Assembly: GCA_038735125.1 (NCBI GenBank)
Contig: JAVYNU010000003.1
Location: 62,001-126,000, forward strand
DNA: 64,000 bases
Reading direction: 5' to 3'
Source of the DNA: Ignisphaera sp.
Lineage (GTDB): Archaea > Thermoproteota > Thermoprotei_A > Sulfolobales > Ignisphaeraceae
Shown piece after piece: positions 35,730 to 51,263 of the stretch. The notes under the pieces are model-generated. The model saw only the letters and a program-made list of their open reading frames with translations, did not search any database and was not told where the DNA came from. Positions within the stretch are counted from its first letter, which is position 1. The number at the start of each line of letters is the position of its first letter. The translations under genes were made by a program, and so were the position numbers.

Positions 35730-36338
35730 TTATAATTTTAATTTTCGTGCAAGTAGCACTTTGTAGCCTTTTTTTGAGGCTCTTATCTCTACTTTGCTGA
35801 ATGTCTGTCTCATTAATTTCTCAATTTTTTCGGCGCCTTTTCTTGCAACTATTTGCAGTGTTCCTCCTGCATTTAGATGTTTTGGCGCTTCTACTATTAT
35901 CCTCTCTACGACATCTGAGCCTGTTGCAAAAGGTGGGTTGCTGTATATTGCATCAAAAACCATGTTTGCTACTGGTTCATATAAATTACCATGGAGAATT
36001 ATGATAGAGTTTGTATCTAGTTTGTTTCTGATAACATTCCTTCTTGCTAGTCTCACCGTCTCTTCATTTATATCTACCATATAAATCTTTAGTTTTGGGT
36101 TTAGCTTAGCTATGGTAATCCCTATTACACCATAACCACACCCCATATCGAGTACCATACCTTCTTCAGGTACTTCAGCATATTCTAGGAGAAGTTTTGT
36201 GCCATCATCAATTCTCTTATACGAGAATATGCCGGAAACAACCTCAAATTCTACTGTAACTCCCCTAATAACATCTGATATTAGTGCATAGCCACCTCTT
36301 CTCTTTACTTTTCTTGAATAATAGTGAGAGCCTGTCAT
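35730..36338 (-). CDS. RsmC-like class I SAM-dependent methyltransferase
   Basis: The protein is about 202 residues. It has VLDMGCGYGVIGI (SAM motif I), KIYMVDINEETVRLARRN, and YSNPPFATGSD, the NPPF motif of N-methyltransferases acting on nucleic acid or protein amines. The size matches the small single-domain archaeal relatives of RsmC (COG2813). The start at 36338 overlaps the cbf5 stop as ATGA; a longer frame begins at 36368. It is translationally coupled to cbf5, suggesting an RNA substrate. Confidence 0.8.
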   Translation of the reverse strand: MTGSHYYSRKVKRRGGYALISDVIRGVTVEFEVVSGIFSYKRIDDGTKLLLEYAEVPEEGMVLDMGCGYGVIGITIAKLNPKLKIYMVDINEETVRLARRNVIRNKLDTNSIIILHGNLYEPVANMVFDAIYSNPPFATGSDVVERIIVEAPKHLNAGGTLQIVARKGAEKIEKLMRQTFSKVEIRASKKGYKVLLARKLKL

Positions 36339-37428
36339 GATCCCTCTACTTTCTTGGGTTTCTTCCACATAGGTGGGTACATATTTGGTTGCATAACAAC
36401 ACGTTCGATATTTGCCACAATACCCTTCTCACTTTTTATAATCTCGTCTAAATCCATGACACTTTTGCCAATAGCTATAAGCTCTCCCTTCAATGTGAAT
36501 ATAGCTACTCTATCACTTTTTTTCACATCATTCGATAAAGCAACTACACCAGGTGCTGCAAGCTGAGCACCATGTGTTATAGCGCCAACGGCAGAATCTT
36601 TTACTATAATCCTTGGCAAGTGAGCAACTATAAATTCTCCTGGTAGAACAATCTTTCGGATGAGGGTCTCATCTCCATATTTACGATGAAGGTAGAGAGC
36701 TTCGCTAACCTCATGCATGGTTACAACAGGTAGATCTTCCCTTATATGAGCGACAGCTGTTCTTCTCAACTCCCTCATATGAGCTTCAACACCAAGCAGA
36801 AGGCCTATATCATGACAAAGCTTCCTTATATAGGTTCCAGACTCGCATCTAACTTTAAATAAGACATGTTTTCCGTCCTCAACCTCCAGAACTTCTATCG
36901 AGTATATCTCCTTAATTCTCAAAGTTCTTTTAACAGATGATCTTAGAGGTGGTCTTTGATATATCTTGCCAATAAACATGTTCATGACCTCCATAAGCCT
37001 ATCTGCTTCAACCTTATCGTGAAGCTCCATCAAAGCTACATACTCTTTGTAGGAATGCATAAGCAATCCTATGACTCTGGTGGCATTCTCTAGCGCTATT
37101 GGAAGTACTCCTGTAACCTTTGGGTCTCCCCGCCCAAACCCTAGATGGGTTTGGGCCCTAGGGTACCCCCATGCCCAGCTTTGGAGATGTTAAACATTTT
37201 CTTAATCCATGCTACAATTTCGTGACTTGTTGGACCAGGAGGTTTATCTAGCGGAATAAATCCATAATCTATATATACATCAATAGGTCTTTCAAGTGGA
37301 TGGAAACCATATTTAGGATCTGTTTCAGCTTCTGATTTAATTATATAGTTACGCGTCTTACCTGCTATTTCATCTAGTCTCTTTAAAAAATTGAGGCCTT
37401 TTTCATTTTCTATATTCATAACTCCCAC
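36335..37428 (-). CDS. cbf5: tRNA/rRNA pseudouridine synthase Cbf5 (spliced, two exons)
   Basis: Exon 1 is 37428-37158 and exon 2 is 37125-36335; removing the 32-base intron restores GTLDPKVTGVLPIALENATRV, the TruB/Cbf5 active-site motif, and gives a 353-residue protein. The catalytic Asp codon is itself split (G|AC). Exon 2 also carries CESGTYIRKL and a C-terminal PUA domain with GELIAIGKS. Cbf5 is the catalytic subunit of H/ACA guide RNPs with Nop10, Gar1 and L7Ae; Nop10 is at 52.6 kb here. An intron at this codon has been described in other crenarchaea. Unspliced, the frame ends at 37141. Confidence 0.93.
37126..37157 (-). other. bulge-helix-bulge intron in cbf5 mRNA
   Basis: The 32-base intron contains a ten-base-pair hairpin (GCCCAAACCC paired with GGGTTTGGGC). 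Exon CCCT pairs with intron GGGG to form the central helix, with bulges AG|G and AG|A at the cut sites. The outer exon-exon helix (GGG with CCC) is imperfect. The length is 2 mod 3, exactly what is needed to connect the two reading frames. This is a substrate for the tRNA splicing endonuclease and RtcB. Confidence 0.92.
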
Positions 37429-51070: not shown

Positions 51071-51084
51071 TTAAGACATTATTG

Positions 51085-51163
51085 TGGCCCCCGCAGAGAC
51101 CCCGTATGCATATTCGCCAACGGCTCATTAATCATACGGGTCGGCCGTTTCGGGGGCCGGATA
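51085..51163 (+). ncRNA. candidate structured RNA downstream of rtcB, H/ACA-like
   Basis: A GC-rich island in AT-rich DNA folds into a lower stem GGCCCCCG/CGGGGGCC (51086-51093 with 51151-51158) and an upper stem CCCGTATG/CATACGGG (51101-51108 with 51133-51140), separated by an internal loop of 7 and 10 bases. The top holds a small GCC-AAC-GGC hairpin, and ATAAC follows the lower stem. The stem-pocket-stem plan resembles an archaeal H/ACA pseudouridylation guide, but the spacing to the ANA box is too long and no K-turn was identified. It is not a tRNA. It lies 15 bases after the rtcB stop. Confidence 0.5.
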
Positions 51164-51263
51164 ACTATTTAAATAATATGTATTATAAACCTTAGGCTAG
51201 TTCACAGCTATTTCAAATTAAATTTATATACCTCTACACATTCTATTTCTATGGTAATGTACA

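Follow-up and report, generated by a model that had tools for sequence, protein, structure and literature searches.

A compact, GC-rich hairpin starts 12 bases past the rtcB stop codon in the window (the whole 64-kb stretch of DNA analyzed here), next to a phosphoribosyltransferase-domain gene (PF00156). The window also encodes two proteins of the H/ACA RNA machinery: Nop10 (PF04135; 52606-52821, minus strand), 1.5 kb from the hairpin, and Cbf5, whose N-terminal domain is matched at about 37213-37356 (G000:C3:99213-99356). The element, 51083-51158 with its ACA box included, has a GC content of 0.618 vs. 0.364 across the window, and a 76-base scan of the 64 kb finds a GC content this high in just three places: the element and two tRNA genes. 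GC-rich islands in hyperthermophiles usually correspond to structured RNA. A sequence-only reading had reported a very GC-rich, two-stem island in AT-rich DNA here, and the hairpin is found where that reading placed it.

Read 5' to 3' on the minus strand, the element runs GGCCCCCG, AAACGGCCGA, CCCGUAUG, AUUAAUGA-GCC-GUU-GGC-GA-AUAUG, CAUACGGG, GUCUCUG, CGGGGGCC, and ACA. Its predicted features follow, with residue counts taken from the 17 rows of alignment A6:

51182-51189, minus strand: TATA-like box TTTATAAT, at 24-31 bases upstream of the lower stem's first base
51083-51158, minus strand: putative box H/ACA sRNA core, 76 nt from the first lower-stem base to the ACA box (model R2: 88.6 bits, positions 1-73 of 73)
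51151-51158, minus strand: lower stem, 5' strand GGCCCCCG, pairs with 51086-51093
51142-51150, minus strand: pocket, 5' guide side AAACGGCCG, G-C-C/U core kept in 17/17, guide reading GGCC, CGCC, or GGCU within the family
51134-51140, minus strand: upper stem, 5' strand CCCGUAU, pairs with 51101-51107
51132-51133, minus strand: pocket-side kink-turn, 5' strand, G51133 and A51132 (1n), A in 17/17
51114-51127, minus strand: apical U-GA / GCC-GUU-GGC / GA mini-stem, second kink-turn-like motif, preceded by A51128
51109-51111, minus strand: pocket-side kink-turn, 3' strand AUG (L2, L3, G1b), U and G in 17/17, A in 16/17
51101-51107, minus strand: upper stem, 3' strand AUACGGG, pairs with 51134-51140
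51094-51099, minus strand: 3' guide UCUCUG, UCUC invariant in 17/17
51086-51093, minus strand: lower stem, 3' strand CGGGGGCC, pairs with 51151-51158
51083-51085, minus strand: ACA box immediately 3' to the lower stem, ANA in 17/17 (ACA 13, AUA 4)

Both stems are well supported in A6. The lower stem shows two-sided changes in five of its eight pairs with 95.6% of cells paired, and the upper stem in six of seven pairs with 98.3% of cells paired. A51141 lies opposite G51100 and may form an extra non-canonical pair closing the upper stem (the column reads G.U in 9 rows, A.G in 7 and A.A in 1, n = 17). The second layer above the seven-pair upper stem consists of a 5' A facing a G, with a U before that G, all three in 17/17 rows; we read this A and G as the 1n.1b pair of a kink-turn and the U as its L3, assigned by position and by the known consensus. 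The 2n.2b pair varies, being G.A in two rows and A.A, A.C, A.U, A.G, or G-C in the others. Counted together, the seven pairs and the two kink-turn pairs give a 9-layer GA stem, or a 10-layer one if the non-canonical closing pair is included, and the ANA box lies 15 nt from the last Watson-Crick upper pair (14 nt from the non-canonical pair), gapless in 17/17 rows. The apical motif reads AUGA in 16/17 rows and GUGA in 1/17, and the middle pair of its mini-stem is C-G in 17/17. Within 51109-51133, and in the relatives, two kink-turn-like motifs of opposite sense stand back to back, separated by hardly any stem.

The two stems are identical on either strand, so that the strand required a separate decision. 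The 306 cells of the A6 pair columns include 274 Watson-Crick pairs, 16 that read as G-U on the minus strand, and 4 A-C combinations, the equivalent of G-U on the plus strand; 290 cells pair on the minus strand vs. 278 on the plus strand. The minus strand alone has an ACA box behind its lower stem, and it alone carries the G and A of the kink-turn; the plus strand has no ACA-type box after the stem. Because G-U cells outnumber A-C cells 16 to 4 and the ANA box is kept in 17/17 rows, the functional strand is the minus strand; a plus-strand reading was rejected on the wobble balance, the ANA box, and the kink-turn residues. The sequence-only reading, which described the element on the plus strand (51085-51163), was thus correct as to place but not as to strand (51158-51083, minus). 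Once the correct strand is read, the element is a clean example of a GC-rich island marking a structured RNA in an AT-rich genome.

Folding energy by itself is only moderately unusual for the element's composition. The minus strand has a z-score of -3.28, with 1 of 200 dinucleotide-preserving shuffles as stable, and the plus strand (-33 kcal/mol) a z-score of -1.87, with 9 of 200 as stable. What places the element above chance is its conservation in relatives with compensatory changes, rather than its fold energy. A protein search with rtcB returned nine loci, and the element follows rtcB in three of them (L004, L005, and L012); it is absent downstream of rtcB in L006-L010, and L011 has only a short match at chance level. 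A DNA search found the element in 10 of the 18 family genomes. Covariance model R1 was built from eight rows aligned in register (A4), and the remaining rows were added by way of it (A5, A6). It recovered a single copy in each of 17 of the 18 family genomes and had no match in the order's 129 other genomes (147 genomes searched); the family genome with no R1 match, G001, is 81% complete. Model R2, made from 17 sequences, returned the same 17 copies and one weak match among 229 genomes of the class, and in the window the core is its sole match at E up to 10. The weak match, in another family (L099; 24.4 bits, E 0.066), falls within an open frame of 396 aa, with no rtcB or phosphoribosyltransferase gene alongside, and was set aside as chance. 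A repeated or mobile element is ruled out by the single copy per genome.

Standard pairs occupy 94.8% of the 306 cells in A6, and 12 of the 18 pairs show two-sided changes, counts that are favored by an alignment made with the model and therefore leaning to the structure. None of 500 shuffles, which ignore relatedness, matched the paired share, the number of doubly changed pairs, or the covariation score, while the count of further pair types was not above the shuffles (391 of 500 as high). When the structure is slid by 1-3 columns, pairing falls to 30-57%. The sequence-only reading had proposed a covariance search across relatives, and had named a lack of sequence or structural conservation there, together with the lack of a stable RNA, as grounds against it; conservation was found in all but one of the family genomes.

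The sequence contains several features by which H/ACA RNAs are recognized, namely two stems and a pocket, an ANA box at the proper spacing, a kink-turn in the upper stem, and a GA stem of about 10 layers. According to PMC4652768, the pocket-closing upper pair lies 14-16 nt from the ANA box (14-15 nt in productive folds), and the GA stem has 10 layers in 14 of 15 productive folds, within a cited range of 8-11. We conclude with high confidence that the element is a free-standing minus-strand gene whose product, roughly 76-80 nt long, is a single-hairpin box H/ACA sRNA that would act as a pseudouridine guide. The best guess of the sequence-only reading, an H/ACA-like guide RNA, is thereby borne out on the minus strand by the ACA box, the kink-turn residues, and the tolerated G-U pairs.

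Like the canonical archaeal H/ACA sRNAs, as represented by the Pyrococcus abyssi Pab set and Pyrobaculum sR201/sR202 (PMC4652768), the element has one hairpin, an 8-bp lower stem, a pocket, an upper-stem kink-turn, an ANA box 14-15 nt from the closing pair, and, if its non-canonical closing pair is counted, a 10-layer GA stem. Unlike them, it carries other guide sequences, AUA in 4/17 rows, and a second apical kink-turn-like motif, and it is confined to one family in the searches made. The H/ACA-like sR203-sR210 of Pyrobaculum are likewise crenarchaeal and share an upper hairpin with a kink-turn, but lack a lower stem (PMC4652768), of which the element has eight pairs. Judged from these sequence comparisons, the RNA is a well-supported, family-specific addition to the archaeal box H/ACA sRNAs and is of an ordinary kind. 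The set of crenarchaeal H/ACA guides characterized so far is small, and the 17-genome model allows annotation of this one across the family.

By analogy with known H/ACA RNPs, the RNA would be transcribed from its own minus-strand gene, L7Ae would bind the upper-stem kink-turn, and Cbf5, with Nop10 and Gar1, would hold the lower stem and ACA box. A target RNA would then base-pair with both sides of the pocket and leave a single uridine between them unpaired, for Cbf5 to isomerise to pseudouridine. The back-to-back kink-turn-like motifs are possibly two L7Ae sites.

The conserved guide allows a pseudouridine site to be predicted directly, and the prediction can be tested. Energy scans covered every U in the organism's own 16S and 23S rRNAs, using the guides of the window and of its relatives in several registers. 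The best mean scores fell to 16S U852, 23S U311, and 23S U1227 (own numbering throughout), and the scan as a whole was not above shuffles (best -15.1, shuffle median -14.3, with at least 12 of 60 dinucleotide shuffles scoring better). The rules given in PMC4652768 include a two-base spacer and a 5' duplex at least as stable as -6 kcal/mol with at most one wobble, and a wobble or mismatch at n-1 or n+2 is treated there as an anomaly. By these rules, 16S U852 is anomalous, requiring an n-1 mismatch or wobble in addition to several other wobbles; 23S U1227 has an n-1 wobble plus two wobbles; and 23S U311 has, for most guides, a G.U wobble at n+2, itself an anomaly. RGRGA precedes a target U at six sites in the organism's own rRNAs. 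On visual inspection, pairing extends to the 5' guide at just one of them, 23S U311 (AGGAGA-U-G-UGGU). Among the sites considered, 23S U311 appears to be the best fit to the published pairing rules (PMC4652768), and we advance it, tentatively, as the leading candidate target.

A pattern assembled from the conserved guide positions, GGRGAUNUGGY, was searched in three full 23S and four 16S sequences, having been written after U311 had already surfaced in the scans. It matches 23S U311 in the window genome and in G011, matches with one mismatch in G010, and has no match in the four 16S sequences. Shuffles of the organism's own rRNA contain the pattern in 38 of 1000 cases, an optimistic figure given that the pattern postdates the site. 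At U311, the 5'-guide side pairs poorly in G010, and the 3'-guide duplex has two wobbles in G011. Family rRNA was recovered as 16S in 4 of the 18 genomes and as near full-length 23S in 3 of the 18.

We take U311 to lie in domain I of the 23S rRNA. A fuller hypothesis, that an RNA with two back-to-back kink-turns binds two L7Ae and directs pseudouridylation in this domain near U311, is unlikely to hold in all its parts. If it were true, the pseudouridine would lie away from the peptidyl-transferase center and helix 69, the known archaeal sites according to PMC7991803.

An explanation that we likewise judge improbable, while giving it some weight, keeps the H/ACA architecture but has the RNA act on a non-ribosomal target such as a tRNA or mRNA, or serve mainly in assembly or regulation. 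Such a role agrees with the failure of any rRNA site to stand out by energy and with the proposal of extra-ribosomal H/ACA targets in PMC4652768. The guide-derived pattern also occurs at 30 sites in the genome, of which just one lies in the 23S gene, vs. 38 sites for the reversed pattern used as a control; against this, the one rRNA site that the pattern fits is in the 23S rRNA, in two of the three full sequences, with a single mismatch in the third. A scan of tRNA loci used a looser, six-base motif on whole loci, not tRNA bodies alone, for 30 of 46 tRNAs, and carries little weight against a tRNA target.

Far less probable is that the element is some other type of conserved structured RNA with a likeness to H/ACA RNAs. 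The two back-to-back apical kink-turn-like motifs and the unusually constant, GC-rich lower stem would suit such an RNA, but it would not readily account for an ANA box at fixed spacing in 17/17 rows or for an upper stem of the known length.

The gene neighborhood bears on the reading of the element as a free-standing box H/ACA sRNA gene. The RNA adjoins a phosphoribosyltransferase-domain gene in 14 of 16 relatives' loci, whereas rtcB is found no farther than about 1.5 kb away in 8 of 16, all belonging to the window's own genus, and is not adjacent in the six genomes of other genera. At one locus (L036, 1501-1572), the RNA is inverted relative to both the rtcB and phosphoribosyltransferase genes and lies on the same strand as rtcB. 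Because the phosphoribosyltransferase link is kept, the rtcB link is not, and the RNA is inverted at L036, the RNA is best seen as a free-standing gene outside the rtcB transcript. A plus-strand terminator or 3' element of rtcB, of which a regulatory 3' element had been the second idea of the sequence-only reading, is largely refuted: it would account for the start so close behind the rtcB stop codon and for the folding of the plus strand, but not for the absence of a nearby rtcB at half of the relatives' loci, the retention of the RNA's own structural strand when it lies on the rtcB strand at L036, the excess of wobbles on the minus strand, or the weak plus-strand z-score.

The TATA-like box sits where an archaeal promoter for the minus-strand RNA would be. 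Across 17 upstream regions, the peak of the TATA-like score starts at -31, and 10 of 2000 row-shift permutations reach a peak as high; a clear box is missing in some rows (e.g., L023 and L033). The cbf5 gene of the window (36335-37428, minus strand) is split into two frames around GHGGTL / DPKVTGVLP, and the frame break fits the known crenarchaeal cbf5 pre-mRNA intron described in PMC2738675.

Known RNA families were also compared with the element. A tRNA search and Rfam rule out a tRNA, as the sequence-only reading had maintained. The Rfam scan that it had suggested (release 15) gave no match to the element at the curated threshold, and in ten relatives no archaeal H/ACA family was matched at the element. 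The best near miss by E-value is itself an H/ACA RNA, HgcG/Pab40 (RF00064). It aligns to the minus strand, stem to stem and ACA to ACA (17.8 bits, E 0.0063), but falls far short of the threshold of 77, differs in its pocket sequence, and has a longer model (276 positions). The H/ACA guide Pab21, located at the 5' end of the snoR9 transcript (PMC4652768) and included in Rfam snoR9 (RF00065), gives a weak minus-strand match of 10.3 bits that, at E 7.2 and a threshold of 90, is not evidence of membership. A literature search, conducted largely without subscription papers, brought up no publication dealing with H/ACA RNAs from this archaeal group; earlier genome screens cited in PMC4652768 may already include the RNA.

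Two minor observations concern the relatives. The 16S match of G011 (L042) spans 1695 bases vs. 1503-1509 in three relatives, and its inserts look like introns. In other genera, one spot 3' of the phosphoribosyltransferase gene gives sub-threshold matches to Rfam archaeal C/D box families and is possibly a C/D sRNA gene, at these positions:

L034, 2344-2400, plus strand: C/D-like sub-threshold match
L031, 1890-1945, plus strand: C/D-like sub-threshold match
L027, 652-709, minus strand: C/D-like sub-threshold match
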